In this document: piece after piece, positions 3,174 to 23,407 of the stretch
How the letters are laid out: each line of letters starts with the position of its first letter
How positions within the stretch are numbered: the stretch's first letter is position 1
From: a virus
Length of the DNA: 23,858 nt
Strand: one strand, 5' to 3'
IMG/VR virus record: IMGVR_UViG_3300010354_000658
Span: 1 to 23,858 of that record
The notes under the pieces: model-generated
Told to the model about the DNA's origin: nothing
Seen by the model: the letters and a program-made list of their open reading frames with translations, nothing else
Database searches by the model: none
Program-made: the position numbers and the translations under genes

Positions 3174-3182
3174 AACTTAAAT

Positions 3183-3189
3183 CCTCCTT
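3183..3189 (-). promoter_or_regulatory. Strong Shine-Dalgarno of the 2838-3173 gene
   Basis: On the minus strand this reads AAGGAGG, nine bases before the ATG at 3173. It decides between two adjacent in-frame ATG codons and suggests the gene is translated independently of its upstream neighbour. Confidence 0.75.
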
Positions 3190-3197
3190 GGGTAATT

Positions 3198-3204
3198 TAT
3201 TTAG
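3198..3204 (-). promoter_or_regulatory. Candidate T4-like late promoter (CTAAATA)
   Basis: The minus strand reads CTAAATA, close to the T4 late -10 box TATAAATA, with no recognisable -35 needed in that promoter class. It contains the stop codon of the gene at 3201 and lies about 25 bases before the start of the 2838-3173 gene, in front of its Shine-Dalgarno. Assignment rests on resemblance and position only. Confidence 0.3.
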
Positions 3205-4924: not shown

Positions 4925-5610
4925 TGGATACCTTCGTTATAGTGTTTCCATTCTTGTATTGTTCCTACGTCAGTATAGGCGTTTACTTCTTCAGCTAAAA
5001 AAATTTTTTCTTTTAAACTCTGTTGAATTACATGACTAACAAATACTTCCTTCAGATTTGTGATTTGAATTTGATTGTACATTTTTAAATAAAACTCCAA
5101 TGATTCAAACCCATAACCTCCAACACAAAATTTATCACTGATGACCTGTTTTTCAATTATGTCAGTGATGATGTTTTGATCATTGGTTTTTATAAAACTT
5201 TTTCCTGCTAGGTTCGTTAGTATCCTGTTTGATTTTACTAAACTATAACAAACAAAATTGTTAAAAGAAAAGTTGTGATCAAAAAAACTATCACAGTCTT
5301 TAACAAACAACGGAGAATTCATATTAAAACTTTTACGTTTAAGTGCTGCAATTATTGTTTCGGCTGGTCCTTTAGTTACCTCTTGTAAAATAACAAAGTC
5401 AACATTTTGGAGTCTAGATAAGAATTCGTGTTCTTTACCAAAATTATGTAAATGACTTTCTAGGAGCACCACCGTGATTGGAAATTTGCCTAGATAAGGG
5501 GAGATAGCTCGTTCTAACATGATCTTACCAGTATGATCAACTAGAGAGTATTTTGGTGCCATGTTGGGAAATCTTGTGCTGAGTCCAGCTGCTGGTACAA
5601 TTATTTCCAT
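4921..5610 (-). CDS. Sugar- or choline-phosphate nucleotidyltransferase
   Basis: 229 residues, the full length expected for a single-domain NTP_transferase of the MurU/LicC/RmlA-like group. It opens with E-I-I-V-P-A-A-G-L-S-T-R-F-P followed by P-K-Y, the GxGxR...PK nucleotide-binding signature. Further on, K-G-P-A-E-T provides the base-recognition loop, V-K-D-C-D-S-F-F supplies an acidic metal-binding pair, and Y-T-D-V-G-T-I-Q-E-W near the C terminus is the usual closing motif. The reaction is NTP plus a phosphorylated small molecule giving an NDP-linked product and pyrophosphate. It overlaps the kinase at 5601 by ten bases, so the two probably work in sequence. It lacks the KdsB signature and is not the CMP-Kdo synthetase. 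Substrate unknown. Confidence 0.75.
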   Translation of the reverse strand: MEIIVPAAGLSTRFPNMAPKYSLVDHTGKIMLERAISPYLGKFPITVVLLESHLHNFGKEHEFLSRLQNVDFVILQEVTKGPAETIIAALKRKSFNMNSPLFVKDCDSFFDHNFSFNNFVCYSLVKSNRILTNLAGKSFIKTNDQNIITDIIEKQVISDKFCVGGYGFESLEFYLKMYNQIQITNLKEVFVSHVIQQSLKEKIFLAEEVNAYTDVGTIQEWKHYNEGIQ

Positions 5611-6338
5611 AAAAGTTTTATTTTTCCTAAAATAAAATTTGCATCTTCAATTAAATTACAGTGCCTGTATATTCTTAGCAGCATGAGAATAAGCAAATAA
5701 TCGTTGTTTAATTCAGGCCATTGTTTTTCTAAATTACCTTTTAGATAAGTCAATTTGTTTTCAATCATGGCATGATTAGTGCGCATAAACCAATGACAAT
5801 CTAAATCTTGTCGTAACTTAATCAAATCAAACAACCAACTGTCCCATATACCAGTGGAACAATCTATTAATACAAATTTGTTTTTACTATAAATGATATT
5901 TTCTAAAGTCAAATCACCGTGGTAATTGCTACTCCATAAGTCAAGTTCAAGCTTGGCTGCAAGTTGTTGTTTAGTAAAAGGTAAGCATTCAAAATTTATT
6001 GATGCTAAAAAATTATCAACTGATTCAGTATAGTTTTTATGAGTAGTAGAAGTAGTAAACTTTTTTCCGAGTCTAATTAAAAATTCAAGCAGTATGTCCG
6101 GATCGTGTTCTATCAAGTATTGTCGTAAATCAATACCGTGTACATACTCCATATCAATGAAAGTATCGCCGGATGCATAAATTGCAGGAACATTTACCTC
6201 ATTTTGTAATTCTTTAAGTTTACTTAGATTTCTTTCAATGTTACCAATTTTTCTAACAAACGCTTTATCGTTGTCTTGCATTAGATAAACTTGACAGCCA
6301 CTATGCCCATAAAGTTTTTTGATTATACTTTCGGGCAT
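5601..6338 (-). CDS. Small-molecule kinase of the APH/choline-kinase fold
   Basis: 245 residues. The catalytic loop is N-Y-H140-G-D142-L-T-L-E-N147, the Brenner motif HxDxxxxN of aminoglycoside phosphotransferase/choline kinase enzymes, followed by L-I-D159-C in place of the usual DFG/IDxE magnesium-binding position. The N-terminal lobe shows a nucleotide-binding strand-loop and a F-V-R-K lysine, then D-M-E-Y-V-H-G in the hinge, all typical of the fold. Enzymes of this type phosphorylate choline, amino sugars or anomeric sugars. The start codon overlaps the stop of the upstream methyltransferase by one base (TAATG) and the gene overlaps the downstream nucleotidyltransferase. Kinase plus nucleotidyltransferase is the layout of LicA-LicC (phosphocholine) and AmgK-MurU (amino sugars). 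Confidence 0.7.
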   Translation of the reverse strand: MPESIIKKLYGHSGCQVYLMQDNDKAFVRKIGNIERNLSKLKELQNEVNVPAIYASGDTFIDMEYVHGIDLRQYLIEHDPDILLEFLIRLGKKFTTSTTHKNYTESVDNFLASINFECLPFTKQQLAAKLELDLWSSNYHGDLTLENIIYSKNKFVLIDCSTGIWDSWLFDLIKLRQDLDCHWFMRTNHAMIENKLTYLKGNLEKQWPELNNDYLLILMLLRIYRHCNLIEDANFILGKIKLLWK

Positions 6339-6898
6339 TATTTGAAAGCTACTACTCTGCTATCATTAGGTGTTTTACTGTATTGATTAGGTTCAGCTCG
6401 GGAACTAGTAAAACCTTGTTGCTTTAACAAATATTCTAAACTTTCTGCACTGTATCCCCACTTGTGCCACATAACCGGATCAGGGTATCTTTCATTGTCA
6501 CCAAAAATACCAAGAATGGTACGTTTTAAAACTCTTCTGTCACTGCTAAACAAACACGAAGGATTATCCGCAATCTCTTTGCACATTTTAAGAAAATCTG
6601 GCCATTCAATAGCGACGAACCCGTTTGGTTTTAAAACTCTTAACCATTCTTGAAACATTGGAGCAACACGACTTCTTGATATATGTTCAATTACATGTAC
6701 ACTGAGAATTTCATCAACTGAATTATCTGGTAACGGAAAAGGTTGTGTTAAATCATGAATTGCCACGCGAGCATCGTGCGCCATGTATTGCCCATCAACG
6801 TTTATATAGTCATCAAAGATTCTAGATCCACAACCTACATGCAATCTAACTGCTTTATTTAGAGCAGTATATTGATTAACAGTCGTAACCAAGTCCAC
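6338..6898 (-). CDS. SAM-dependent class I methyltransferase
   Basis: 186 residues. Motif I is L-H-V-G22-C-G24-S, the glycine-rich SAM loop, followed by I-N-V-D-G for the ribose-binding acidic residue, H-D-L-T-Q-P-F-P-L-P-D-N-S-V-D-E-I in motif II, and H-V-I-E-H-I with a following R-V-L-K-P-N-G-F motif, all standard for Methyltransf_11-type enzymes. These methylate small molecules or sugars; the target here is unknown. It begins with GTG at 6898, supported by an AGGAG Shine-Dalgarno six bases upstream, and overlaps the GT4-like gene by 23 bases. In the operon it likely caps or decorates the glycan made by its neighbours. Confidence 0.8.
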   Translation of the reverse strand: MDLVTTVNQYTALNKAVRLHVGCGSRIFDDYINVDGQYMAHDARVAIHDLTQPFPLPDNSVDEILSVHVIEHISRSRVAPMFQEWLRVLKPNGFVAIEWPDFLKMCKEIADNPSCLFSSDRRVLKRTILGIFGDNERYPDPVMWHKWGYSAESLEYLLKQQGFTSSRAEPNQYSKTPNDSRVVAFK

Positions 6899-7838
6899 GA
6901 AATACTCCTAACCATTTTTCTGCTGCCTGTTCTACTGAATAATTTTCTAGAACATATTTTTGTCCTTGAGTGATTCTATCAAGAACTGTTTGCGGATTAT
7001 TCACGGCCCATTTTATACCTTCCATTGGATCCTTTTGCCATGTATACGAATCAAACTCAACGTAACTGGCTAGTGGACTTGTAATTACCCATCTTCCTGA
7101 TACTAAGCTATCTAGAACTCTATTAGCACTTTTAGTTTCTGTTCTGTAATGATCTACATGCACAGGCATGAGCACTGCATCGCATTCTAGTAGTTTTTGT
7201 CCTTGTAAGTTCCAATCCCAATCAATGATTGAAATTTTGTTTAAATTAACTCCTGGAATCATACCACGTTTGAATCGATCTTGAAATTTTTGTGTAATCC
7301 GTTCAGCTTTAGCTGTGACCATGGTAAAGTGATAATTTTGAATTTCTTTTTCTAACCGTTGCCATATTTCTACCATGGGAAAAAATTTTAAACTGGCCAT
7401 GCTGCCAAACCAAAGTAGATTTAACTTCTCTTCAGGCATAAATCTAGGCGGCAATATTGGTCGTTCGTATGGATCAAAAACTACAGTGCTGTCTTTATCA
7501 GTCGCTGTTTTAAGGCTTGCTGCCATTTCATTACTGTTAACAGTGATATAGTCTGCAGTCAAACAGCAGGGTATGTATTCAGGTTTTTCATTAAATTTGT
7601 TGTCACAAATGTCATATATGGTTTTAGCCCCTTGGCGTTGGGCTTGCTCTATTTCTTCAGGCTGACTAAATTTTAAAAATACTACAACTGTATTATTATC
7701 CACTTGAGGCAATTTTTTTGTTGCTATAGCATCGTAACCAAGTTGACGTAGGGCTTTAGCCGGTAACTCCCCTCTAAGTCTATGGCTCGCTCGTTTTTCT
7801 TTGAAGCCACCGCTATAAAATATAATCTTTAAGGCCAT
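6876..7838 (-). CDS. GT4-like (GT-B) glycosyltransferase
   Basis: 320 residues from the ATG at 7838 (M-A-L-K-I-I-F-Y-S-G-G); an in-frame TTG at 7850 is possible but gives a less natural N terminus. The first half holds a glycine-rich start and R-L-R-G-E-L-P-A-K-A-L, as in GT-B enzymes; the middle has L-L-W-F-G-S-M-A-S at the start of the second Rossmann domain; the C-terminal half has K-S-A-N-R-V-L-D-S-L-V-S-G-R-W-V-I-T, the helix that binds the donor phosphates in GT4-type proteins. It would transfer a sugar from a nucleotide donor. It overlaps the FkbM methyltransferase stop by ten bases and the next methyltransferase by 23, so all three are probably translated together. Confidence 0.7.
   Translation of the reverse strand: MALKIIFYSGGFKEKRASHRLRGELPAKALRQLGYDAIATKKLPQVDNNTVVVFLKFSQPEEIEQAQRQGAKTIYDICDNKFNEKPEYIPCCLTADYITVNSNEMAASLKTATDKDSTVVFDPYERPILPPRFMPEEKLNLLWFGSMASLKFFPMVEIWQRLEKEIQNYHFTMVTAKAERITQKFQDRFKRGMIPGVNLNKISIIDWDWNLQGQKLLECDAVLMPVHVDHYRTETKSANRVLDSLVSGRWVITSPLASYVEFDSYTWQKDPMEGIKWAVNNPQTVLDRITQGQKYVLENYSVEQAAEKWLGVFRGLGYDC
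6905..6909 (-). promoter_or_regulatory. Shine-Dalgarno supporting a GTG start at 6898
   Basis: The minus strand reads AGGAG, six bases before GTG at 6898, inside the 3' end of the upstream gene. It fixes the non-ATG start of the methyltransferase. Confidence 0.65.
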
Positions 7839-8479
7839 CCCATTATCCAATCATCTTTAACATGATCCACTTTTTTCATGCCCCACGACTCTAATAGTGC
7901 AACTGCTGCATGTTGCCCATACTCAGAACTGTAGGCGTCATGTGGTTTTTGCTCAACTACAATAATTGGTTTGTTGTTTTTTACAGTTCTTTCTGCCCCT
8001 AACAAAACTTTGTATTCAAACCCTTCGCAATCAATTTTTATGTAATCTATATCTGAGTACCCAAAGTCGTCAAGTGGACAAATTTTAATCGTACCTTGTC
8101 CGTAACTAGTTGGATCTACATGTGTGTGCCCCATATTGTCTTTAGTAATAATCATGTTTACAGTTGACTTTTTGTCACCTAAGGCCACATCTTGGATGTG
8201 TAAATTCCATGAATCAATATTTGCTATCAAACACTCTCTAAAAATTTCAACTGGTTCAAAAGCGTATACAGTAGAAAAATGCTGCACAAGGTCTCTACTC
8301 CAAAGTCCAACATTAGCACCAATATCAATGGCACATCTAAATTTTTTACAATATTGTATACTTCGATCTCGAACTTGATACTGATATCTTGCCGGACCTC
8401 CTTTGGCAACACTTTTATCTAGCATTTTTTGAAAGTGTGTTTCGCCTTCAGGAAAATACCATCCTAGATGCTCTTTCAT
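7829..8479 (-). CDS. FkbM-family methyltransferase
   Basis: 216 residues. Clear FkbM layout: C-A-I-D52-I-G-A-N-V-G58 is the SAM-binding loop, V-Y-A-F-E-P-V follows as the acidic ribose-binding strand, then L-x-I-x-D-V-A-L-G-D, and a late strand I-D-Y-I-K-I-D-C-E-G-F-E-Y, the family's hallmark, followed by I-I-V-V-E. FkbM enzymes O-methylate sugars and other small molecules, often in surface polysaccharide clusters. The ATG overlaps the upstream stop as ATGA and has an AAGGAA Shine-Dalgarno. With the methyltransferase at 6338 this gives the operon two distinct methylation activities, probably on different positions of the same product. Confidence 0.88.
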   Translation of the reverse strand: MKEHLGWYFPEGETHFQKMLDKSVAKGGPARYQYQVRDRSIQYCKKFRCAIDIGANVGLWSRDLVQHFSTVYAFEPVEIFRECLIANIDSWNLHIQDVALGDKKSTVNMIITKDNMGHTHVDPTSYGQGTIKICPLDDFGYSDIDYIKIDCEGFEYKVLLGAERTVKNNKPIIVVEQKPHDAYSSEYGQHAAVALLESWGMKKVDHVKDDWIMGWP

Positions 8480-9276
8480 GGAAATTCCTTTTCTAAAAAT
8501 TTACGAGCAGATCCATCTGCAAGTTCTGTGTTATGAAATTGACCATAGGCTAAGTGCCTTGCCCATTGTTGCATCAAATCCATGTCGGGAAAAAACGGAC
8601 TTTCAATTTTACTAATGTCAGTGTTTGCAACAGGTAAAGCAGCGTGGCATGGTGCAGTTACAAAGGCAGGTACGCCGGAAATTATAGCTTCTGTGGCTGC
8701 ATTGGAATTAAAAGTAACCACTGCGTGTATATCTTTCAAAGCATCTTGAAAATCATTATTGACTCTATTTCTACGATTTGGATCTCGCTGTCTAATAACA
8801 ATTTCACGATCTGTGTGCTGCTTTAAATTTTCTAATACGCTACGCAACCAACCTTCCAAGGTTATGTTATATACGCTACAAGGTTTTTCATCTGGCGCTG
8901 CTACTAAAATTTTACTACCACTTTGTTTAGATTTAATTTGTATTTTAAGACGTTCCCAACGATCTGCTGGTCTAGGAATAATTTTACCATGTTGGAAATT
9001 ATTAGGTACTATTCTGTGATACAGTTTCCATCCATGCGGATTAAGAGGACCTGCACGATTTCCAAAATATCCAGTGTCCATGAATAGGAAAGGTCGGTTA
9101 TCATCCCAACAGCGTTTCATAATTTTGTGTTTCATTATGCCACGAATTACCAGTGGAGCAGTGCTGTCTCCATATTCCCATAACTCTAGAGGTGTTGGAT
9201 CAACACCAGATCCTGATGCAAATAAATTGATGTACTCATCAACACCATGCTTGCTAAGATAGATCCACTCTTGCAT
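8476..9276 (-). CDS. Stand-alone relative of the C-terminal domain of the two-domain glycosyltransferase
   Basis: 266 residues. It aligns over nearly its full length with residues about 300-547 of the protein at 302-1945. Shared segments in order: P-L/V-V-I/L-R-G, D-T-G-Y-F-G-N, K-L-Y-H-R-I, R-P-x-D-R, T-D-R-E-I/V-V-I-R, A-L-x-K-D-I-H-x-V/L-V-T-F, A-A-x-E-A and H-L-A-Y-x-Q-F. The central T-D-R-x-I-V-x-R and the later T-F-N-S-N-A-A-T-E-A turn also match the protein at 10135, so all are one family of capsule-synthesis-like GT-B domains. Catalytic residues are not certain. Likely role: sugar transfer within the operon. It sits one base after the stop of the upstream GT-A gene. Confidence 0.55.
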   Translation of the reverse strand: MQEWIYLSKHGVDEYINLFASGSGVDPTPLELWEYGDSTAPLVIRGIMKHKIMKRCWDDNRPFLFMDTGYFGNRAGPLNPHGWKLYHRIVPNNFQHGKIIPRPADRWERLKIQIKSKQSGSKILVAAPDEKPCSVYNITLEGWLRSVLENLKQHTDREIVIRQRDPNRRNRVNNDFQDALKDIHAVVTFNSNAATEAIISGVPAFVTAPCHAALPVANTDISKIESPFFPDMDLMQQWARHLAYGQFHNTELADGSARKFLEKEFP

Positions 9277-9277
9277 A

Positions 9278-10123
9278 TTACCTTATAGACTGCCAATAAG
9301 ATTCTTTACGTGTAACTTTGATATCTTTAGCTAGACTGTGCCCAGCTTGTTTACGATTGTCACCTTTTAAATGATCAAGATATGCACCCCACGCTGAGTT
9401 GATTAGTGGATGTCCTTCACCTGGTGTGTTACTAGGGCTAGCACGTAAATCTCCAAGGTTAGCACACCAATTTAATTGCCTCATGCCAGAAATGCGATTG
9501 CGCACATCGTCAAATACAAAACTATCATGCCACTCGCCTAAAGTAAAAATGCCTTGTTCAGCATCGTCATACATTCTTTGAAATTCGCGCAAAAATCTTA
9601 CTGAAAATTTTGTGTTTAACTGAATTGCATATAACCCGCATTCACTAAATTTGCCTGCTCGGCCAAGGTAACATAAATCAAATTCATTAGGACACATCAA
9701 ATCAAGAAAACTTTCAGGCAATTGACTGTGACATACCATGTCCGCGTCCATCCAAATTAACCATGGGGTGTTAGCTACGCTGGCTGCATGGAAAATACTA
9801 TAAACTTTATGACTAAATCTTATAGCATCCCATTTAAAAACTTTAAAATTATCTTTGCGTTTGGCCAAGTGCGGTAAACTGGAAATATCACCATTGGCTT
9901 TAGGGTCATTTTTGTGCCGGGCCTTAAACTCAACTAATTTTGGACAGGCACTATGTAAATCAAGCACTTCAAGATTTGGTGCTGTTTGATGAACTAAACA
10001 ATCTTCTGCATAGGCTTTAAGCTGCACAGTTTGTGGCCAGGCTCTTATAAAAGTGTCTAGCATGCGGCTAGCATATTGATTATAACCCTTCTCGTGGAAA
10101 GTGGTAACTACAGTATATTTCAT
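9278..10123 (-). CDS. GT-A glycosyltransferase with DAD motif
   Basis: 281 residues. The protein begins M-K-Y-T-V-V-T-T-F-H, a typical first strand of a GT-A fold. The metal and nucleotide site is W-L-I-W-M-D126-A-D128-M-V, a clean DxD motif. Upstream, W-D-A-I-R-F-S-H-K-V-Y supplies the conserved K-x-Y helix; downstream are an L-G-E-W-H-D-S-F-V-F-D acceptor-side motif and H-P-L-I-N-S-A-W-G. It would use an NDP-sugar and a divalent metal; the acceptor is unknown. It is the first gene of the minus-strand operon, and its start lies only 11 bases from the divergent GTG at 10135, so its promoter must lie inside the opposite gene or within the short gap. A CTAAATA box ends five bases before its ATG. 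Confidence 0.75.
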   Translation of the reverse strand: MKYTVVTTFHEKGYNQYASRMLDTFIRAWPQTVQLKAYAEDCLVHQTAPNLEVLDLHSACPKLVEFKARHKNDPKANGDISSLPHLAKRKDNFKVFKWDAIRFSHKVYSIFHAASVANTPWLIWMDADMVCHSQLPESFLDLMCPNEFDLCYLGRAGKFSECGLYAIQLNTKFSVRFLREFQRMYDDAEQGIFTLGEWHDSFVFDDVRNRISGMRQLNWCANLGDLRASPSNTPGEGHPLINSAWGAYLDHLKGDNRKQAGHSLAKDIKVTRKESYWQSIR

Positions 10124-10134
10124 GGAAATATTTA

Positions 10135-10980
10135 GTGATTAAAACTTTGGCCATATTTGAAAACTATTGCGCATTAAATTCCAAAGAAGTTCTAGCTGCA
10201 ATAAGACAAAGTACAGCAAAATTTGGTATACAAGTACTATCTAACTCAATGGATGCTGACGCTTTGTTAATTTGGAGCGTGTTGTGGAATGGCAGAATGT
10301 TGCCAAACAAAAGTTTATATGACCATTATCGGCAACAGGGTAAGCCGGTAATTGTCATTGATGTTGGTGCGCTCAAAAGAAACGTCACGTGGAAAGTATC
10401 AGTGAACAATGTAAACGCACTAGGACAATATGGGCACTTAGAAAATCTTGACTTTGATCGTCCAAAAAAGCTTGGTTTACAACTTAGTTCGAATAAGTCT
10501 AACGGTGAAATCATTGTCATGGGCCAACATGCAAAAAGTCTAGCGTTTATGCCATGGATATGTCAGGAGAATTGGTTTAATCAGACGGTGGAAATTTTAA
10601 GACAACACACTGATAGGCAAATTGTATTACGACCGCATCCTCGCAGCAGAATCAATCCGCATTTGCTGACACAAAGTGCTAGACTACAGATCCCAAAACA
10701 AATTGTTGGTACTTACGATGATTTTGATGCTAGTTTTAACTATCATCTTGTTGTAAATTATAATAGCGGGCCTGGCATCCAAGCCGCCATACACGGTGCA
10801 AACGTATTTGTAGATGTAACTAGTTTAGCTGCTCCTATTGGTATTAAGGTAAATCAACTTGAGACGCCTCCGAGCACAGATCGAGAACGTTGGTTAATAG
10901 AAATAGCTCATACTGAATATACAGTTCCTGAATTAGCAAATGGAACATGGTTAACAAGATTAGAAAAATGGATAAGTTAA
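10135..10980 (+). CDS. Capsule-synthesis-like putative GT-B glycosyltransferase
   Basis: 281 residues starting with GTG (M-I-K-T-L-A-I-F), the first in-frame start after the divergent gene; no clear Shine-Dalgarno is visible. The second half carries L-R-Q-H-T-D-R-Q-I-V-L-R-P-H-P-R-S, then V-V-N-Y-N-S-G-P-G-I-Q-A-A-I-H-G-A, the KpsC/KpsS-like nucleotide-binding region, and ends with E-I-A-H-T-E-Y-T-V-P-E-L-A-N-G-T-W, equivalent to the C terminus of the protein at 8476. It is therefore a divergent member of the family that also includes the proteins at 302 (C-terminal half), 1942 and 8476. The R-P-H-P motif groups it most closely with 1942. Donor and acceptor unknown. Confidence 0.55.
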   Translation: MIKTLAIFENYCALNSKEVLAAIRQSTAKFGIQVLSNSMDADALLIWSVLWNGRMLPNKSLYDHYRQQGKPVIVIDVGALKRNVTWKVSVNNVNALGQYGHLENLDFDRPKKLGLQLSSNKSNGEIIVMGQHAKSLAFMPWICQENWFNQTVEILRQHTDRQIVLRPHPRSRINPHLLTQSARLQIPKQIVGTYDDFDASFNYHLVVNYNSGPGIQAAIHGANVFVDVTSLAAPIGIKVNQLETPPSTDRERWLIEIAHTEYTVPELANGTWLTRLEKWIS

Positions 10981-11831
10981 GCAAACGATTACTACGAGAA
11001 CAACAGCGGTTGGATTTACACCGGCAATTGGCCGTCAGCGAAAAAGCTCAAAAGAGAGCAGAAAAAGAACAAGCTAGATTGTTAGAAACCACTACAAATG
11101 CCGCCGGCCCGGAGTTATCAGGTCCAGTTAATATTGCATGTTTAATTCACAGTGATGGTTATGATTGGGAATATGTTGAAAGACTGTACTCAATGGTAAG
11201 ACGTAATTTATCACGCCCAGTGGTCTTTCATGTGTATACTGAACCTGAACGTCATGTGCCATCGCACATGATCAAACATGAATTAATAGAATGGCCCGGA
11301 CAATGGGGCATGCGTAAAAGTTGGTGGTATAAATTGCAAATTTTTAACAATGAACACTTTTCAGGTCCTATGCTATACCTTGATCTTGATGTTGTTATTG
11401 TTCGAAGTATTGACTGGTTAGTTAAATTACCTCCAAACTATCTTTGGGCTCCTAAAGATTATCGAGTACTTTGGAAGGCTACACATAGAGGTATAAACAG
11501 CAGCGTCATGTGGTGGGATGTCAATCATTTTGCCTGGGTGTACGAAAAGTTTGCCAAATCAGATTTGAATTATCTAATGAAACAATATCAAGGCGATCAA
11601 GATTACCTGTCAGCCGTCATTCCAGAAAACAGTCTTAGGCATACATTGCCAATGACTATTATGAGTTGGCGTTGGCAAGTTTTAGATGGGGGGCTAAATT
11701 TTAAAACAAGACAACCTATCAAGCCAGGTACAGGAACCAATTTGGATGCTCGAACAAGTATTTTAGTTTTTCACGGCAGTCCAAAACCTCACGAAGTTTC
11801 AGATCCAGTTATTGAAACATTTTGGCAATGA
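10968..11831 (+). CDS. GT-A glycosyltransferase with basic coiled-coil N terminus
   Basis: 287 residues from the ATG at 10968, which overlaps the upstream stop by 13 bases; an ATG seven codons earlier (10947) is also in frame and neither has a convincing Shine-Dalgarno. Residues 1-45 are charged and heptad-like (R-L-L-R-E-Q-Q-R-L, E-K-A-Q-K-R-A-E-K-E-Q-A-R), a likely coiled coil for oligomerisation or tethering. The catalytic domain follows: I-A-C-L-I-H-S-D-G, then P-M-L-Y-L-D139-L-D141-V-V-I-V as the DxD metal site, and I-N-S-S-V-M-W-W-D and V-F-H-G-S-P-K-P-H near the end, with the histidine that completes metal binding in GT8-like enzymes. Sugar specificity is unknown. Its stop overlaps the next gene as ATGA. 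Confidence 0.7.
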   Translation: MDKLSKRLLREQQRLDLHRQLAVSEKAQKRAEKEQARLLETTTNAAGPELSGPVNIACLIHSDGYDWEYVERLYSMVRRNLSRPVVFHVYTEPERHVPSHMIKHELIEWPGQWGMRKSWWYKLQIFNNEHFSGPMLYLDLDVVIVRSIDWLVKLPPNYLWAPKDYRVLWKATHRGINSSVMWWDVNHFAWVYEKFAKSDLNYLMKQYQGDQDYLSAVIPENSLRHTLPMTIMSWRWQVLDGGLNFKTRQPIKPGTGTNLDARTSILVFHGSPKPHEVSDPVIETFWQ

Positions 11832-13823: not shown

Positions 13824-15284
13824 ATGCGACAAGCAAAATTAATAATTAACGACGAAGTCAATGTCAAAATTGAAGGACTTGAGTTAGACGCACGTAGAAC
13901 TTTGGTTAAAAAGTTCAAATATGACATTCCATATGCAAGATACTTACCTGCTGTACGCCTAGGACGTTGGGACGGCAAAATGGCCTATTTCCAACTTGGA
14001 GGTAGTACTTTTGTAAATTTGCTGCCAGAAATAATTCCAATTTTAGAAGAATACAATTACGATATTGAGTTGGAAGATAGGCGAGAATACAGCACATCAT
14101 TTAAATTTACTACTGTTAACTCCGACACATTTAGTAGTCATGTTTGGCCAAAGGGTCATCCCAATGTTGGCGAACCAATCCTTTTTCGTGACTATCAAGT
14201 AAACATTGTCAATGGTTTTTTAGCGAATCCACAGAGCATACAAGAAGTCGCCACCGGAGCCGGTAAAACTCTAATCACCGCTGCACTCAGTCACAGTGTA
14301 CAACAACATGGCCGCAGCATTATTATTGTGCCCAATAAGAGTTTGGTAATACAAACTGAAAAGGATTATTTAAATTTGAATCTTGATGTTGGAGTCTATT
14401 TTGGAGATAGAAAAGACAGCAATCATCAGCACGTGATCTGTACTTGGCAAAGCTTAAACAACATTTTAAAAAATACAAAGAATGGAACAGACACAATTTC
14501 AATAAGTGAATTCTTAGAAGGTGTTGTCTGCGTTATTGTAGATGAAACACACATGGCAAAGGCAGATGTATTGAAAACTATGCTTACTGGACCTATGTCA
14601 CGTATACCAATTAGATGGGGATTAACAGGCACGATTCCTAAAGAGCAATTTGAATCGCAGGCGCTCGCAGTCAGTATTGGGCCAGTAATTAATAAACTAT
14701 CTGCCAGCGAGCTTCAAGTTCGAGGGGTACTTGCGCAGTGTCATGTGAATATTGTGCAACTTGTAGATCATGTAGAGCATAAGAATTATCAACAAGAATT
14801 AAAGTATCTATTTGAAGAAGATGGTCGTTTAAACGCAATGGCCAACCTTATACAACAAGTAAACGAAACAGGTAACACACTAGTCTTAGTTGATCGTATC
14901 TCAGCCGGACAAGAACTAGTCGCTAGATTAGGTGACCGAGCAGTGTTTGTCAATGGTGCAACCAAACTATCAGAGAGACAAGAAGAGTATGATGAAATTG
15001 CAACAAGTGATAATAAGGTTATTGTGGCGACTTATGGTGTGGCCGCTGTGGGTATTAATATCCCTCGTATTTTTAATTTGGTTCTTTTGGAGCCCGGAAA
15101 AAGCTTTGTCCGAGTTATACAAAGTATTGGGCGAGGTATTAGAAAAGCTGAAGACAAAGACTTCGTACAAATCTGGGACATAACTAGCACTTGTAGATTT
15201 GCTAAAAGACATTTAACAAAACGCAAGGCATACTACAAGGAAGCTAACTATCCGTTTACTCAGGAGAAACTTGAATGGCAGTAA
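13824..15284 (+). CDS. uvsW: UvsW-like superfamily 2 DNA/RNA helicase
   Basis: 486 residues, near the length of T4 UvsW. The N-terminal 110 residues match its small substrate-binding domain (A-R-Y-L-P-A-V-R-L-G-R-W-D-G-K). Helicase motifs follow in order: R-D-Y-Q as the Q-like motif, A143-T-G-A-G-K-T149 (motif I), D240-E-T-H (motif II), G-L-T-G-T (motif III), V-I-V-A-T-Y-G (motif V region) and Q433-S-I-G-R-G-I-R-K (motif VI). UvsW unwinds branched DNA and R-loops, drives fork regression and switches replication from origin- to recombination-dependent start. Here it has its own promoter directly after a terminator, with an apparently leaderless start. Its last ten bases overlap kdsA. Confidence 0.92.
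   Translation: MRQAKLIINDEVNVKIEGLELDARRTLVKKFKYDIPYARYLPAVRLGRWDGKMAYFQLGGSTFVNLLPEIIPILEEYNYDIELEDRREYSTSFKFTTVNSDTFSSHVWPKGHPNVGEPILFRDYQVNIVNGFLANPQSIQEVATGAGKTLITAALSHSVQQHGRSIIIVPNKSLVIQTEKDYLNLNLDVGVYFGDRKDSNHQHVICTWQSLNNILKNTKNGTDTISISEFLEGVVCVIVDETHMAKADVLKTMLTGPMSRIPIRWGLTGTIPKEQFESQALAVSIGPVINKLSASELQVRGVLAQCHVNIVQLVDHVEHKNYQQELKYLFEEDGRLNAMANLIQQVNETGNTLVLVDRISAGQELVARLGDRAVFVNGATKLSERQEEYDEIATSDNKVIVATYGVAAVGINIPRIFNLVLLEPGKSFVRVIQSIGRGIRKAEDKDFVQIWDITSTCRFAKRHLTKRKAYYKEANYPFTQEKLEWQ
15262..15266 (+). promoter_or_regulatory. Shine-Dalgarno of kdsA inside uvsW
   Basis: AGGAG lies eight bases before the ATG at 15275, inside the last codons of uvsW, so kdsA is translated from the uvsW transcript. 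Confidence 0.65.
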
Positions 15285-16105
15285 GCCTAGCAAATTTTGA
15301 AATAGGATTGCAGCATCCGTTAACTGTTATTGCCGGTCCATGTCAAATTGAAACAGAAGATCATGCGCTTATATTAGCCATGAAGTTAAAAACTATTTGT
15401 TTTGAACTTGGTGTCAATTTTGTTTATAAAAGTAGTTTTGATAAGGCTAATCGGACCAGTGTATCAACTAAACGAGGACCGGGAATCACAGAAGGTCTAG
15501 AAATTTTGTCGCAAGTCAAAAAACAAATTGATGTACCTGTACTAACTGATATACATTTGCCCGAACATGCAGAATATTGTCAAAAATACGACATTGATAT
15601 TATTCAGATTCCTGCTTTTTTATCAAGACAAACAGATTTGCTTATAGCAGCCGGAGAATCAGGTGCTGTTGTTAATATTAAAAAAGGCCAGTTCATGGCT
15701 CCTAATGATATTGCACGAGCGGCTGAAAAAGTTGCTAGCACTGGCAACACAAAAATATTATTATGTGAAAGAGGAGTAACACATGGATACAATAATCTTG
15801 TGGTTGACATGCGCAGTTTACCTATTATGGAGCGTACTGGTTATCCCGTGGTATTTGATTGCACCCATAGTGTACAGCAGCCTGGAGGGCTTGGTACTAG
15901 CTCAGGCGGGGACCGATCCATGGTCCCATACTTGGCGAGATCCGCTGTAGCAACTGGTTCAGTATCAGCAGTGTTTATTGAAACTCATCAAGATCCAGAT
16001 TCTGCTCCCAGTGATGGTCCCAATATGGTGCCTGTAAATCAAATGCATAGTTTAATTGGGCAATTGAATCAATTGCATCAAATGGTTGCAAGTTTTAAAA
16101 AATAA
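15275..16105 (+). CDS. kdsA: 3-deoxy-8-phosphooctulonate synthase (Kdo-8-P synthase)
   Basis: 276 residues, the full length of bacterial KdsA. It condenses phosphoenolpyruvate with D-arabinose 5-phosphate to give Kdo-8-phosphate, the committed step to Kdo of lipopolysaccharide and some capsules. Conserved blocks: I-A-G-P-C23-Q-I-E, Y-K-S-S-F-D-K-A-N-R-T-S, G-P-G, T-D-I-H, Q-I-P-A-F-L-S-R-Q-T-D-L, N-I-K-K-G-Q-F, C-E-R-G, F-D-C-T-H-S-V-Q-Q-P-G-G, and I-E-T-H-Q-D-P-D-x-A-x-S-D-G-P. Cysteine 23, where the E. coli enzyme has asparagine, together with the later His, Glu and Asp indicates the metal-dependent class. The gene appears intact and overlaps uvsW by ten bases. No kdsB, kdsC or kdsD was seen, so the host would supply the rest of the pathway. 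Confidence 0.95.
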   Translation: MAVSLANFEIGLQHPLTVIAGPCQIETEDHALILAMKLKTICFELGVNFVYKSSFDKANRTSVSTKRGPGITEGLEILSQVKKQIDVPVLTDIHLPEHAEYCQKYDIDIIQIPAFLSRQTDLLIAAGESGAVVNIKKGQFMAPNDIARAAEKVASTGNTKILLCERGVTHGYNNLVVDMRSLPIMERTGYPVVFDCTHSVQQPGGLGTSSGGDRSMVPYLARSAVATGSVSAVFIETHQDPDSAPSDGPNMVPVNQMHSLIGQLNQLHQMVASFKK

Positions 16106-16846: not shown

Positions 16847-17276
16847 ATTAAACATTCAAAATGAAATGGCTTGCTTTGATAACAAAGTAAGAAACTTTTA
16901 TGACGAACTAACTGATGACGAGCGTAAAAAATTTAGTAACTATCTTATGATTCGTTGGGGGTCTAGTGTAGAAGGTGGTAGAGAGCTGCAAGAATTTTAT
17001 TTGATAGCTACTAACGAAAGATTAAACAAACATTTTTTTGCTATCAACCGTCATCCAAAATTACAATGGCTATGTGCCACATCAGTTAGTCCGGGTATGG
17101 GCAAGTTTAGACACAGCTGGATAGCAACAAAGAAAAAAGAATCTAGTAGCAATCAAACCAAAAAAGTTTTAAAAGAACTATTTCCGTTGCTTAAAGAAGA
17201 TGAGTTAGAGCTTATGTCTAAAATCAACACACAACAAGATCTAAACAGGTACATAAAAGATCTTGGGGAACAATGA
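16839..17276 (+). CDS. Probable clamp-loader small subunit (gp62-like)
   Basis: 145 residues, starting with GTG that overlaps the previous stop. The middle region, H-F-F-A-I-N-R-H-P-K-L-Q-W-L-C-A-T, followed by a K-K-K-rich stretch and a C-terminal L-F-P-L-L-K-E-D-E-L-E-L-M-S-K-I-N-T-Q-Q-D-L, resembles the short gp62-type clamp-loader subunits of T4-like phages of aquatic bacteria as I remember them. In T4, gp62 joins four gp44 ATPases to load the gp45 sliding clamp on DNA. T4 gp62 itself is longer (187 residues) and no gp44 or gp45 is in this window, so the call rests on sequence pattern and on replication neighbours. It overlaps the next gene as ATGA behind a G-rich ribosome site. Confidence 0.45.
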   Translation: MDKLNIQNEMACFDNKVRNFYDELTDDERKKFSNYLMIRWGSSVEGGRELQEFYLIATNERLNKHFFAINRHPKLQWLCATSVSPGMGKFRHSWIATKKKESSSNQTKKVLKELFPLLKEDELELMSKINTQQDLNRYIKDLGEQ

Positions 17277-17953
17277 CTTCATATCAATGTCGTTTTTGCG
17301 ATAAGTCATTCCAACGAGAACGCAGTTTGGAAGTACATCTATGCGAACCTAAACGCAGATTTCAAGAACAAAACGAACCCGGAGTACGTCTAGGCTTTAA
17401 CGCATACTTAAAGTTTTATGAGTTAACACAAGGTTCTGCTCGCACAAAAACTTTTCAAACGTTTGCAGAAAGCAACTACTACCGAGCTTTTACTAAATTT
17501 GGAAAATACTGTATTAATATTCGTGCAATAAACCCCACACAGTTTTTAGATTGGCTGTTAAAAAATAATAAAAAAATTGATAACTGGACCAGTGATAGAC
17601 TGTATGAAGAATACTTGTTATGGTGGTTACCTAAGGAGAATGTAGCAGATGCGCTTGAAAGAGGAATTACTGAAATTGAAAACTATGCTGAACACAGCAA
17701 CTTGGCACATTTTCGAGATTACTTTCGTTTTGGCAATGATAACCGCATTTGCCATCACATTACTACTGGTCGTGTTAGTCCTTGGGTTGTTTTCAATTGT
17801 GGTTCTGGTATTGAGTGGGTTGATGGCCTTGAGCAACAGCATTTGGATTTGGTCCTTCGTTACATTGATCCTGATATTTGGAATCGCAAGTTTAGTGATT
17901 TCCCATCAGACGTAGAATATTGTAAACACATTTTAAAAGAAGCAGGATTATGA
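17273..17953 (+). CDS. Zinc-finger protein of unknown function
   Basis: 226 residues. The N terminus carries a single classic finger: C6-x2-C9, F13, L19, H22 and then C24, a C2HC variant of the eukaryotic-type C2H2 finger in which the last ligand is reached after one residue. The rest is a helical domain rich in aromatic residues, with Y-Y-R-A-F-T-K-F-G-K-Y, P-T-Q-F-L-D-W-L and, near the C terminus, G-R-V-S-P-W-V-V-F-N-C-G-S-G, the best conserved-looking stretch. I do not recognise its family. It lies between the gp62-like gene and the 17950 gene, with ATGA overlaps on both sides, so it is co-expressed with replication genes; DNA or RNA binding through the finger is a reasonable guess. Confidence 0.6.
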   Translation: MTSYQCRFCDKSFQRERSLEVHLCEPKRRFQEQNEPGVRLGFNAYLKFYELTQGSARTKTFQTFAESNYYRAFTKFGKYCINIRAINPTQFLDWLLKNNKKIDNWTSDRLYEEYLLWWLPKENVADALERGITEIENYAEHSNLAHFRDYFRFGNDNRICHHITTGRVSPWVVFNCGSGIEWVDGLEQQHLDLVLRYIDPDIWNRKFSDFPSDVEYCKHILKEAGL

Positions 17954-18948
17954 ATCCAGTTTATATTGATTTTGTTCCAGGTACACATGGTCATTTTTTG
18001 GCCTATTTGTGCAATAGGTTCAATCCCGAGTCGTCGGCTGCTGCAAAAGCATTAGATCCTTTCAATGACCTTGGTGCGAGTCATAACACAAGTGATGCCT
18101 ATCAAGCCACTCAAAGATTTTTTAATGCACATTACTACGAAACTGAAGATATTAGTTTACGTGGTTCAGTTATATCAATATCTTTTACCGAAGACGATTT
18201 GTTACCATTACTAAGTGGATCACTATTACGAGCTGGCAATGCAGGTATAGACAATGACGAATTACAAACAGATACCTACAATAAATTAGCTAATACCTTT
18301 AACAAACCATTACTTGAAAAACTCATTAGCGGATTTAGTCAAGGGCAGATTAAGGCCGGATACGATGCTATTAAAGATCCAACTTGGCCAGACATTAACT
18401 TTGCTGATGACTATTATGCGTTACCTAAGCATATCCAAGATGAATGCGAACAACAACATGGCATGACTGTGTTCGAGCTTTCTGAGTCAAGACCTCACTG
18501 CCCTAGAAATATCTTGCGAGAGTTTTTCAAATTTGGATTTAAGCGTCCAGAAGAACATGGGTTAATGTTAGAACAGCAACGCATGGTTTATACAAATTCT
18601 GACAAAGTGATTTATATACCGTTTTCTGCGTTTTACAACGCTAATGAGTTAGGAAAAGAATTTTACAAATTGGTAAAACATTTTGATTTAATTTGGGATC
18701 CTTGGACATTAGGTAGTTTACAAAAAAAATTCGCTAGTAAACAAAAATATGCAAACAGTCTTATTAAATGTAAACAACTGTTAGAATTTATTTTAGATGA
18801 TAAGGAAATGAAAATTCCTAAATTGTCTTTGCTGGAAGAAAGCTACATTGAAGCAATTATTGAAACACAAACTGGTTGCAGTCTACCTACAAATAATGTA
18901 GAATGGTATACTGATATTAATGAATTAAGATCACACTTTAAAAAATGA
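17950..18948 (+). CDS. Hypothetical protein with sulfotransferase-like N terminus
   Basis: 332 residues. It opens with V-Y-I-D-F-V-P-G-T-H-G-H-F-L-A-Y-L-C-N, a beta-strand, glycine-containing loop and helix that resembles the PAPS 5'-phosphosulfate loop of sulfotransferases. Later segments fit loosely: R-N-I-L-R-E-F-F-K-F-G-F, V-I-Y-I-P-F-S-A-F-Y-N and a helical C terminus. No 3'-phosphate-binding motif is clear, so the family call is weak. It is linked by ATGA overlaps to the zinc-finger gene and the DnaE-like gene. If it is a sulfotransferase it could add sulfate to a glycan made by the left-hand island; if not, it is a replication-operon protein of unknown role. Confidence 0.35.
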   Translation: MNPVYIDFVPGTHGHFLAYLCNRFNPESSAAAKALDPFNDLGASHNTSDAYQATQRFFNAHYYETEDISLRGSVISISFTEDDLLPLLSGSLLRAGNAGIDNDELQTDTYNKLANTFNKPLLEKLISGFSQGQIKAGYDAIKDPTWPDINFADDYYALPKHIQDECEQQHGMTVFELSESRPHCPRNILREFFKFGFKRPEEHGLMLEQQRMVYTNSDKVIYIPFSAFYNANELGKEFYKLVKHFDLIWDPWTLGSLQKKFASKQKYANSLIKCKQLLEFILDDKEMKIPKLSLLEESYIEAIIETQTGCSLPTNNVEWYTDINELRSHFKK

Positions 18949-19514
18949 GTGCAGATATTGACATAGACTTTGCTGATCGAGACCAAATACTTGGCTTAAT
19001 CAAGCACATCCCTGCAAGACAAGTTGTTGATGGACAGGTGCGCAAACACAACAGCGGTGTCTATGTCACTGATATTCCTTATGATGTAGTCAATCAATGT
19101 GCTGCATTTGATTATCAAGAAGCTGAACGGCGTGGATACTTTAAAATAGATTTTTTGAATATGTCAGTGTATCAATTAATTAAAGATCAAGATCATTATA
19201 ATTCCATGTTAAGCAAAGAACCAAATTGGCAGAGATTGTGGCAAGATCCAGATTGGGCAGAAAAGTTAGTGCATGTTGGAAACTATGTTTCTTTGTTGAG
19301 TACAATGAAGCCTGATTCAATTACAAGAATGGCAGCATTTATATCAGTGATTCGCCCGGGCAAAGCGCATTTGCAAGGTAAATCTTGGACGGAAGTTTTT
19401 GAAACAGTATGGGACGGTGATGATAGCAAGGGATACACATTTAAGAAAAGTCATGCTGTAAGTTACGCTGCACTTGTCACACTGCACATGAATTTACTCG
19501 ACTTTTCTAACTAA
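18945..19514 (+). CDS. Miniature DNA polymerase III alpha-like (DnaE-like) protein
   Basis: 189 residues, against roughly 1,160 in E. coli DnaE. Three conserved strips of the C-family polymerase appear in the right order: A-D-I-D6-I-D8-F-A-D-R (in DnaE P-D-x-D-x-D-F, with two catalytic aspartates), K34-H-N-S-G-V-Y-V (H-A-x-G-V-V-I), Y-F-K-I-D69-F-L-N (the third catalytic aspartate strand, K-F-D-F-L-G-L) and, near the C terminus, K-K-S-H-A-V-S-Y-A-A-L (K-S-H-A-x-x-Y-A). The PHP, most of the fingers, beta-binding and OB regions are missing. Polymerase activity is therefore doubtful; it could be a nucleotide-binding or regulatory derivative. The ATG overlaps the previous stop as ATGA; the 3' end overlaps a convergent gene by 21 bases. 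Confidence 0.6.
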   Translation: MSADIDIDFADRDQILGLIKHIPARQVVDGQVRKHNSGVYVTDIPYDVVNQCAAFDYQEAERRGYFKIDFLNMSVYQLIKDQDHYNSMLSKEPNWQRLWQDPDWAEKLVHVGNYVSLLSTMKPDSITRMAAFISVIRPGKAHLQGKSWTEVFETVWDGDDSKGYTFKKSHAVSYAALVTLHMNLLDFSN

Positions 19515-19871
19515 TGTAATAGATTTTCTTTTGCTTTTTTTCTTAGCAATATCAAGCAGACTACATGCAGGACCATGAACAATACTTAAGTCTCTATTCA
19601 TAAAGGTTCTAAGATAGGGCCTAAACGGCTCCCAGTCTTGTTTGAGAAATATGTTAATAGGGATGCTTCTGTTGCTTTCCCACCACCAAATATTTGCAAG
19701 ATTAATAAAAGTCAACTTAAGTTCATGATCTAAAATCAGCCCGTAGTCATAAATTGTTGTGACTATTTCATCTCTATTTTGTATTATTCCAACGTACTCA
19801 TTACTTGCATATATGCAAAGTGAAATAAATGGGTACTTTTCTGCCAATTTTGTAAAGATATTACTGCCCAT
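19494..19871 (-). CDS. Conserved phage protein of unknown function
   Basis: 125 residues. It resembles a family I recall from T4-like phages of aquatic bacteria, marked by K-Y-P-F-I-S-L, E-Y-V-G-I-I-Q-N, W-W-W-E-S-N-R-S-I-P-I-N-I-F and a very basic C-terminal end (K-K-K-S-K-R-K-S-I). No function is known to me. The basic tail suggests contact with nucleic acid or acidic protein. It is a lone minus-strand gene between two plus-strand units: its 3' end overlaps the DnaE-like gene and its start lies 20 bases from the divergent gene at 19892, with the candidate late promoter of that gene lying across its start codon. The two genes may thus be expressed at different times. Confidence 0.6.
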   Translation of the reverse strand: MGSNIFTKLAEKYPFISLCIYASNEYVGIIQNRDEIVTTIYDYGLILDHELKLTFINLANIWWWESNRSIPINIFLKQDWEPFRPYLRTFMNRDLSIVHGPACSLLDIAKKKSKRKSITLVRKVE

Positions 19872-21024: not shown

Positions 21025-22020
21025 ATGATTGATATCCTATCTTACATTCGAGGCAAAAGAAAAAATACTGCTTCGGGATGGATCAGTTTCAACGCTGTAT
21101 GCTGCCATCATAATGGAAATACACAAGACAAACGTGGCCGCGGCGGCATCAAAGTTTCTGATCAAGGGTGGAGTTATCACTGTTTTAATTGCAACTACAC
21201 TGCCAGTTTTATTCTTGGCCGCAATTTAACTTATAAAGCTCGAAAGCTTTTACAATGGTTAAATGTTCCAGAAACTGAAATTAATCGAGTGAATCTTGAA
21301 AGCATACGGCACAGAAGTATTAGTGGGCTGATCGATGATCGTCAACGTGCATTTAATGAAGTAGCCGGCATTCATTTTGATGAAAAAGACTTACCGCAGC
21401 AGGCTGTTTTATTATCATTGGTCAAAGAAGACTATTCAGAATATCAAAACTACGTTGATAGTCGATGTGTACCACCTGACTATCCAATTATGGTACAGCA
21501 AGGGAATGATGGGGTACATTGGACTCGGCCTCATGTGGTAATTCCTTTTACATTTGATAACACAATTGTTGGATACAGTTGTAGATTCTTAGATAATCGC
21601 ACACCCAAATATATTAATGAAACACAGCCTGGCTACGTATTTGGTACTGATTTAATAAAATCTTCATGGCAGTATGTGATTGTTTGTGAAGGTATTTTTG
21701 ACGCTTTGAGTATTTCTGGTCTAGCAGTGTTACACAGTGAGATAAATGATGCGCAGGCAAGGCTAATAAGAAGCCTTGGCAAGGAAATAATAGTTGTTCC
21801 GGACCAAGACAAAGCTGGTATTGCCTTAATTGATCGAGCAGTAGAATTGAATTGGAGTGTTAGTATACCAGACTGGCCCAATGATGTAAAAGATATCAAT
21901 GATGCAGTTAAGAAATTTGGACGCCTTGGTGCTTTACTAACTATTATGCAATCAAGAGAAATTAGTCGTATTAAAATAGAATTAAGGAAGAAACAACTTG
22001 TTAAAAGATTACAACATTGA
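21025..22020 (+). CDS. DNA primase, gp61-like
   Basis: 331 residues, close to T4 gp61. The N-terminal zinc site shows C26-x2-H29 and, after a basic loop, C53-x2-C56 (Y-H-C-F-N-C-N-Y). The TOPRIM domain follows: I-V-C-E222-G-I-F-D-A-L with the catalytic glutamate, V-V-P-D260-Q-D262-K-A-G with the metal-binding pair, and a later K-D-I-N-D-A-V. It makes short RNA primers on the lagging strand and works with the gp41 helicase, which is encoded next and overlaps by 23 bases. The layout primase then helicase fits a coupled primosome. Its promoter resembles those of uvsW and the 16120 gene in placing the -10 box six bases before the ATG. Confidence 0.88.
   Translation: MIDILSYIRGKRKNTASGWISFNAVCCHHNGNTQDKRGRGGIKVSDQGWSYHCFNCNYTASFILGRNLTYKARKLLQWLNVPETEINRVNLESIRHRSISGLIDDRQRAFNEVAGIHFDEKDLPQQAVLLSLVKEDYSEYQNYVDSRCVPPDYPIMVQQGNDGVHWTRPHVVIPFTFDNTIVGYSCRFLDNRTPKYINETQPGYVFGTDLIKSSWQYVIVCEGIFDALSISGLAVLHSEINDAQARLIRSLGKEIIVVPDQDKAGIALIDRAVELNWSVSIPDWPNDVKDINDAVKKFGRLGALLTIMQSREISRIKIELRKKQLVKRLQH
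21984..21990 (+). promoter_or_regulatory. Shine-Dalgarno supporting the TTG start of the helicase
   Basis: AAGGAAG lies seven bases before TTG at 21998, inside the primase gene. The next in-frame ATG (22042) would remove 15 residues and has no such site. Confidence 0.65.
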
Positions 22021-23407
22021 CGTACAGCGACTTTTCTTAGAGATGATGCTGGAGGATGCACAAAGCTATGTTCGAGTGCAGAATATCTATAATGCTGAAA
22101 ACTTTGACAAAAGTCTTCGTGCAGCCGCTCGTTTCATACAAACGCATACTGATGAACACAAAACTATGCCTGATCGTGCGCAGATTGCAGCAGCCACAGG
22201 TACTAAATTAGAGACTATACCTGATCTTAACGAAGGACACTATGATTGGTTTCTAGCAGAGTTTGAAACTTTTACAAAGCGGCAGGAACTAGAACGTGCT
22301 ATTTTGAAAGCAGCAGACTTACTTGAAAAAGGCAACTTTGATCCAGTAGAAAAACTAATAAAAGATGCTGTACAAATTAGTCTACAGAAAGACATGGGCA
22401 CTGATTACTTTGCTGACCCTCGCTCTCGCTTGCTTGCGTTAAAAAACAGCAATGGGCAAAACAGTACAGGATGGCCTGCTTTAGACAAACTGTTGTATGG
22501 TGGGTTCAATCGCGGCGAACTACAGATCTTTGCTGGAGGTTCTGGTAGTGGTAAAAGTCTGTTTATGCAAAATCTTGCAGTGAATTGGGTACAAGCAGGT
22601 CTTAATGGTGTATATCTTACACTAGAACTTGCTGAAGGGCTTTGCTGTATGCGTATTGATTCAATGATGACCAACACTGCCAGCAAAGAAATTTTCCGTG
22701 ATATTGACACAGTAGAAATGAAAGTTAGAATGTTGGCCAAGAAGTACAACAGCAAGTTCCGTGTCAAGTACATGCCAGCACAGAGCAACATCAATGACAT
22801 TAGATCGTATATCAAGGAACTGCAAATACAAGAAAATATGAAAATTGATTTTTTGTGTGTTGACTATCTTGATTTGTTAATGCCTGTAAGTGCCAAAGTT
22901 AGTCCTAATGATCTTTTTGTTAAAGACAAGTATGTTTCTGAAGAATTGCGTAACCTAGCCAAAGAACTTAATGTGTTGTTTGTTACAGCATCGCAGTTGA
23001 ATCGTAGTGCCGTTGAAGAAATTGAATTTGACCATAGTCATATTTCTGGTGGCATATCTAAGATCAATACAGCAGACAACGTGTTTGGTATCTTTACTAG
23101 CCGAGGTATGCGTGAAAAAGGTCGCTATCAAATACAGTTAATGAAAACTCGTAGTTCTAGCGGGGTAGGACAAAAAGTTGACCTGGAGTTTGATATTGAA
23201 AGCTTGCGTATCAGAGACCTAGCTGAAGACCAAGGTTATCAAGAATTTAAGAAACGAGCACCGTCAATCTATGAATCAATTAAGGCCACTAGTCAAGTTG
23301 TAGACAACGAGCCTAACGCTACAACCCCTGATGAAGTAGGTAAGATTTCTGCCGATGTGCAGAGTGCCAAGCTAAAACAGTTGTTGAATAAAATTAAGCC
23401 AAGCTGA
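21998..23407 (+). CDS. Replicative DNA helicase, gp41/DnaB-like
   Basis: 469 residues from a TTG start backed by a good Shine-Dalgarno. The N-terminal 150 residues are helical, as in the DnaB/gp41 N domain. The RecA-like motor follows: Walker A is G180-G-S-G-S-G-K186-S187, Walker B is I-D-F-L-C-V-D-Y-L-D-L-L, and F-V-T-A-S-Q-L-N-R-S-A-V-E is the conserved Q-containing motif; G-G-I-S-K-I-N-T-A-D-N-V-F-G-I and L-M-K-T-R-S-S-S-G-V-G are the later family blocks with the arginine region. It forms a ring hexamer that unwinds the fork 5' to 3' and recruits the primase encoded just upstream. The last 14 bases overlap the convergent minus-strand gene. Confidence 0.93.
   Translation: MLKDYNIDVQRLFLEMMLEDAQSYVRVQNIYNAENFDKSLRAAARFIQTHTDEHKTMPDRAQIAAATGTKLETIPDLNEGHYDWFLAEFETFTKRQELERAILKAADLLEKGNFDPVEKLIKDAVQISLQKDMGTDYFADPRSRLLALKNSNGQNSTGWPALDKLLYGGFNRGELQIFAGGSGSGKSLFMQNLAVNWVQAGLNGVYLTLELAEGLCCMRIDSMMTNTASKEIFRDIDTVEMKVRMLAKKYNSKFRVKYMPAQSNINDIRSYIKELQIQENMKIDFLCVDYLDLLMPVSAKVSPNDLFVKDKYVSEELRNLAKELNVLFVTASQLNRSAVEEIEFDHSHISGGISKINTADNVFGIFTSRGMREKGRYQIQLMKTRSSSGVGQKVDLEFDIESLRIRDLAEDQGYQEFKKRAPSIYESIKATSQVVDNEPNATTPDEVGKISADVQSAKLKQLLNKIKPS

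Follow-up and report, generated by a model that had tools for sequence, protein, structure and literature searches.

The gene at positions 18945-19514 of the analysed DNA encodes half of a predicted enzyme, i.e., its 189-aa protein is a member of the already described family of split DNA polymerase III (Pol III) alpha subunits. The protein is very probably the C-terminal subunit of a two-subunit split family C polymerase with a catalytic role. For the reaction of this split enzyme, templated DNA synthesis is a reasonably probable, if less certain, assignment. In the following, the window denotes the whole stretch of 23,858 nucleotides, i.e., positions 1 to 23,858 of the IMG/VR virus record IMGVR_UViG_3300010354_000658. 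For the two halves we computed homology, complementary coverage of DnaE, the exact split point, co-occurrence, conservation and the fold of each half.

For the jumbo phages of group 2.2, Iyer et al. 2021 (Viruses 13:63, PMC7824862) predicted a phage-specific minimal Pol III alpha made of an N-terminal NTP-binding and a C-terminal metal-/template-binding protein. The two genes are distant from each other in these phages, which also have a family B polymerase, and the split form was suggested to be primitive. Previous genome descriptions of CBB (PMC5259590) and Atu_ph07 (PMC6102473) had reported no more than a truncated or single alpha subunit. In the open-access literature, we found no published experimental test of split Pol III alpha. 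New here are the exact split point, the co-occurrence, a 141-kb non-jumbo carrier, the structural mapping of both halves and the conserved neighbourhood.

The first-pass annotation of the window had interpreted the protein as a miniature DnaE-like protein in its own right. Its DnaE origin and the acidic triad stand, while the stand-alone miniature does not; both the second half encoded in trans and PMC7824862 had been overlooked.

Motifs and conservation of the 189-aa protein

According to the ORF list and its translation, the gene starts with ATG on the plus strand and encodes 189 aa. The features of the gene are

18945..19514, plus strand: predicted C-terminal subunit of a split minimal DNA polymerase III alpha (phrog_11778), with three catalytic aspartates and reduced fingers
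18954..18971, plus strand: DIDIDF metal-binding motif (D4, D6, D8), equivalent to E. coli DnaE D401/D403 by DnaE-chain and structural alignment
19143..19157, plus strand: KIDFL (E. coli KFDFL) with K67 and the third catalytic aspartate D69, equivalent to D555 by DnaE-chain alignment
19353..19364, plus strand: RPGK of the fingers (R137, P138, K140), equivalent to DnaE RPGP by DnaE-chain alignment and conservation
19446..19469, plus strand: KSHAVSYA with H170, equivalent to DnaE KSHSAAYA by DnaE-chain alignment and conservation

The protein shows D4-I-D6-I-D8-F, H35-N-S-G-V-Y-V, K67-I-D69-F-L and K168-S-H170-A-V-S-Y174-A in DnaE order. These four strips, together with the match to phrog_11778 ('DNA polymerase', E 2e-57), identify the ORF, well beyond chance similarity, as a genuine DnaE (family C) relative, as had been proposed. 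The DIDIDF and HNSGV strips, between which the thumb of DnaE lies, are spaced by about 26 residues only. The G-x-GRGS nucleotide-binding motif is absent from the 189-aa chain when its sequence is read.

D4, D6, D8, H35, G38, K67, D69, L71, W95, R137, P138, K140 and H170 never vary in 129/129 aligned homologues, whose identity to the 189-aa protein goes down to 29%. That is, the triad D6, D8 and D69 reported by the first-pass annotation is identical throughout. The start of the protein is similarly constant, i.e., in 81/91 IMG/VR loci of the phrog_11778 family the start codon lies 3 residues before DxDxD. Some members open with MPDIDIDF, which equals the reading of cellular DnaE at the same point.

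Family assignment and distribution

Searched against the PDB, the family profile finds DnaE chains only (best E 0.014). The profile is needed for this detection, since with the single 189-aa sequence as query the only PDB match was a restriction enzyme, hit by chance. The family also escapes a search with Pfam by itself, where the only match to the protein is a sub-threshold, unrelated one to NIPSNAP; the NCBIfam matches are far under the cut-off.

Matches to the 189-aa protein occur in 95 phage records, and in 63 of these the match spans 80% or more of the protein. Streptomyces phages make up 32 of the 95, with weak, partial matches to genes annotated as DnaE-like. The isolate phage members are 29-44% identical to the window protein, and the C-terminal half was found in at least 579 IMG/VR contigs. 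Several C-terminal units (JN882285, KU574722, MT939487 and others) carry the label 'putative membrane protein', which is probably a misannotation.

The genome collection yielded 11 matches, each of which lies in a metagenome-assembled bin; the taxa of these bins are scattered and include archaea. We infer that the matches are misbinned phage contigs and not host genes. One carrier of the C-terminal-half gene, PBPT01000016.1, is filed under Neomarinimicrobiota; its 335 kb roughly correspond to a jumbo phage genome, and it is probably a misbinned phage.

A partner half encoded elsewhere

A short ORF of 150-180 aa (phrog_11127) is located elsewhere in the genome in 12/12 isolate phage genomes checked. 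It matches PF07733 at profile positions ~13-98 of 260 (11/11 isolates plus Alishewanella phage Slicko01), and its sequence holds G-x-GRGS and ends with EFLR, EFLK or similar. The partner profile aligns gaplessly to E. coli DnaE 322-392 (E 4e-4, DnaE chains only). In 79/80 IMG/VR loci the C-terminus lies exactly 29 residues past G-x-GRGS, and G142/R143/G144/S145 are invariant in 61 partner sequences. The profile has at least 593 matches in the same public viral collection.

Apart from a sub-threshold match in CBB, no further PF07733 piece was found in the complete relatives. The partner gene was not found within the 23.9-kb window; since this record is a fragment, the window phage's own partner is presumed from its relatives. 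According to a survey (PMC9123017), 51.9% of one group of marine jumbo phages have PF07733; in our own reading, these matches would be, at least in part, the partner half. Two further families, phrog_13169 and phrog_7513 (~461 aa), match the partner close to their own C-termini, a hint that a DnaE piece ending shortly past the same motif exists in other phages as well.

The invariance of both pieces bears on a non-catalytic role, in which the DnaE-derived protein would serve the family B replisome as a subunit or regulator. Such a role would fit a short protein that lacks most DnaE domains and whose relatives have a family B replicase, but the metal- and nucleotide-binding residues are invariant among the 129 sequences and so is the GRGS loop of the partner family. 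Because loss of active-site residues would be expected in a catalytically dead subunit, we regard this role as improbable, and the earlier idea of a decoy or regulator is not supported for the same reason.

Structure and split point

The AlphaFold model of the 189-aa protein, based on a 67-row alignment from IMG/VR loci, has a mean pLDDT of 91.5, and that of the partner has 83.3. Both halves were folded separately.

In line with the proposed comparison to the DnaE palm, VIA-align superposes the 189-aa model on DnaE/PolC with Z 6.3-9.6 over 184-187 of 189 residues. That is, the protein shows the Pol-beta-like palm fold, matching palm and fingers of DnaE/PolC at Z up to 9.6 over 187 residues. 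The next unrelated entry has Z 3.6, such that no non-DnaE/PolC entry exceeds this value among the entries listed by VIA-align; taken alone, this list does not argue against other polymerase folds. This is also reflected in the Foldseek search, where ranks 1-12 are all DnaE/PolC with a modest best E of 8e-4. The palm of the 189-aa chain alone is incomplete, i.e., its first part including the GS loop is missing.

For the partner, model residues 71-174 match DnaE/PolC with Z 7.3-11.7 (next unrelated VIA-align entry Z 2.3; Foldseek best E 0.018, which is modest), and the first 70 residues have no structural match.

The structural mapping on E. coli DnaE assigns residues 278-393 to the partner and 399-780 to the 189-aa protein. 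As only 189 residues cover the latter stretch, about half of it is deleted, in agreement with the long deletions noted before; the deleted part presumably includes the thumb, given the DnaE domain layout. PHP, thumb, clamp-binding, OB and tau-binding regions are absent from the two chains as mapped. In the four DnaE/PolC crystal structures used for the mapping, the end of the partner and the start of the 189-aa protein correspond to residues 393 and 399 in E. coli, 413 and 418 in M. tuberculosis, 455 and 460 in T. aquaticus, and 965 and 970 in G. kaustophilus PolC. Given this partner end and the fixed start before DxDxD, both proteins jointly cover one palm with about 5 residues lost at the junction.

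Rejoining by an intein was considered and rejected, since the pieces end (EFLR) and start (MSADIDIDF) at the junction without extra sequence. Among 80 partner loci, selected for their resemblance to the short partner, we observe no natural fusion of the halves.

The split point also speaks to a self-sufficient tiny polymerase or transferase that works without a partner. In its favour, the high pLDDT predicts a good fold for the chain by itself. On the other hand, it begins at DnaE 399 and thus without the GS motif and the helix of the nucleotide site, and a partner with exactly the missing parts is always present in complete genomes. We therefore give self-sufficiency very little weight. Since the GS/triphosphate-binding part of the palm is lacking, the self-contained, very small nucleotidyltransferase once suggested for the protein is not supported.

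Co-occurrence and polymerase complement

Both halves are present in 12/12 isolate phages. These include Alishewanella phage Slicko01 (OQ508956.1), which with 141 kb is below the jumbo threshold and carries the halves about 11 kb apart together with a family B polymerase; there, both halves are annotated as hypothetical. Among IMG/VR contigs of at least 290 kb, 7/7 examined have both halves with one copy each. Three smaller contigs have one half only, which is expected as they are fragments. The phage of loci L020 and L108 also has both halves, and its C-terminal unit is 73% identical to the window protein.

Across genomes, the halves are spaced from ~4 kb to more than 200 kb apart. Over 13 genomes, the distances of the two halves co-vary (r 0.86, 0/5000 permutations), which shared ancestry alone could yield.

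The first-pass annotation had named gp43 of family B as the usual polymerase of a T4-like replication operon, and we find a separate family B polymerase in 12/12 isolates. In the three family B ORFs read, DINSLYPS, NSLYG/NSSYG and YGDTDS as well as the exonuclease motifs are intact. Family A polymerase is absent from all 14 records searched, and no family B polymerase was seen among the ORFs of the 23.9-kb window, which is a fragment.

Genomic neighbourhood

The neighbours of the gene within the window are

13824..15284, plus strand: UvsW-type helicase, conserved upstream in 39/41 testable loci
17273..17953, plus strand: phrog_11058 protein, its N-terminus resembling a C2H2 zinc finger, conserved upstream in 95/104 testable loci
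17950..18948, plus strand: 332-aa ORF with no family assigned, found in 13/109 loci, its stop overlapping the start at 18945 (ATGA)
19494..19871, minus strand: phrog_11637 ORF, convergent and overlapping the end of the polymerase gene, directly downstream in 111/120 testable loci
21025..22020, plus strand: gp61-type primase with Toprim domain, 80/88 loci
21998..23407, plus strand: gp41-type DnaB-like replicative helicase, 47/49 loci

The UvsW, primase and helicase genes are thus conserved around 18945-19514, i.e., the T4-like replication neighbourhood is genuine. The partner has a neighbourhood of clamp loader and topoisomerase genes; in RaK2 and XacN1 the clamp loader gene follows a few genes downstream of it. 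We rule out the 332-aa ORF as a subunit of a conserved system, since only 13/109 relatives have it.

Two further observations concern the window itself. An aldolase-type synthase (15275-16105, plus strand; phrog_5045, E 2e-8) that resembles KDO-8-phosphate or DAHP synthase lies inside the replication block and is found there in 2/51 testable loci. Furthermore, positions 302-11831 hold a long run of ORFs that, by the appearance of their sequences, resemble glycosyltransferases or surface-sugar genes beside the replication module.

The synteny also argues against a pseudogene, i.e., a decaying remnant of a full DnaE. Truncation relative to cellular DnaE is what a remnant would show, but the gene occurs in the at least 579 viral contigs with near-constant length and start site, an invariant active site and conserved synteny. 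We thus rejected this explanation, the probability of which we consider negligible.

Proposed two-piece enzyme

From the results above, we infer a physical complex, catalysis and a biological role of the two halves. By analogy with DnaE biochemistry, the phrog_11127 partner would supply the first part of the palm, the G-x-GRGS loop of which would hold the incoming triphosphate. The 189-aa protein would provide the strands carrying D6, D8 and D69 for the binding of two metal ions, and R137, K140 and H170 of the reduced fingers together with the invariant K67 may contact nucleotide or template. The two chains are thereby predicted to rebuild non-covalently one Pol-beta-like nucleotidyltransferase palm, which would lack the thumb, PHP, clamp-binding, OB and tau-binding parts.

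Most likely, the split enzyme would act as a low-processivity accessory DNA polymerase at T4-like replication forks, with gap filling, primer extension, repair and bypass as candidate roles. The accessory role is suggested by the family B replicase carried by the same phages. Efficient primer extension is doubtful given the loss of the thumb.

Alternatively, the two-piece enzyme might be active as a nucleotidyltransferase on another substrate (terminal addition, end repair or priming) and not as a templated polymerase. This would agree with a fully conserved palm active site that is complete only in trans, with the loss of the thumb and much of the fingers (i.e., the short DIDIDF-HNSGV spacing), and with replication being already done by the family B polymerase. 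The retained fingers motifs RPGK and KSHAxxYA are at odds with it, and so is the genomic context, with UvsW, primase and helicase adjoining the gene and the partner located near clamp loader and topoisomerase. We consider such a transferase unlikely, though less so than the other alternatives above.

Returning to the split polymerase, we tentatively suggest a more specific picture, which we hold to be possible but somewhat short of probable: the smallest working family C polymerase might be a thumb-less heterodimer of ~360 residues with a shared active site that performs a task of its own next to the family B replicase across a very large giant-phage group. This task might be, e.g., lagging-strand primer extension or a non-templated reaction.

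Relation to known systems and implications

The window protein belongs to the same family as the split Pol III alpha described by Iyer et al. and is likewise a free-standing C-terminal unit. Its complete relatives have the NTP-binding versus metal/template split, the distant genes, the family B polymerase and the T4-like replisome as described there. Compared to those isolates, the window is a metagenomic fragment, its protein is 29-44% identical, and its presumed partner gene is outside of the fragment.

Bacterial DnaE (E. coli, T. aquaticus, M. tuberculosis) and PolC have the same palm motifs, the three aspartates and the order of RPGP and KSHxxxY, and they superpose over nearly the full length of the protein. 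In contrast to these, the 189-aa chain lacks E. coli residues 1-398 as well as part of the fingers, and the phage palm is divided between two proteins.

Cyanobacterial DnaE (Npu/Ssp split intein) is likewise made from two distant genes. There, the break is at a different place, immediately ahead of the KSH motif, and protein splicing joins the halves, whereas the phage pieces have no intein sequence at the junction. In the phage family, an intron, an intein or a homing endonuclease located at the active-site motif could have caused the break, or the split form could be primitive as Iyer et al. propose.

Given its presence in hundreds of viral contigs of one public collection, the split enzyme may be among the commoner uncharacterised polymerases. 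If active, the pair would show what the minimal core of the bacterial replicase family is, and that two chains from separate genes can build one active site with no protein splicing involved. The pair also bears on the question whether the split form is primitive, as put forward by Iyer et al., or a broken, reduced descendant of cellular DnaE.
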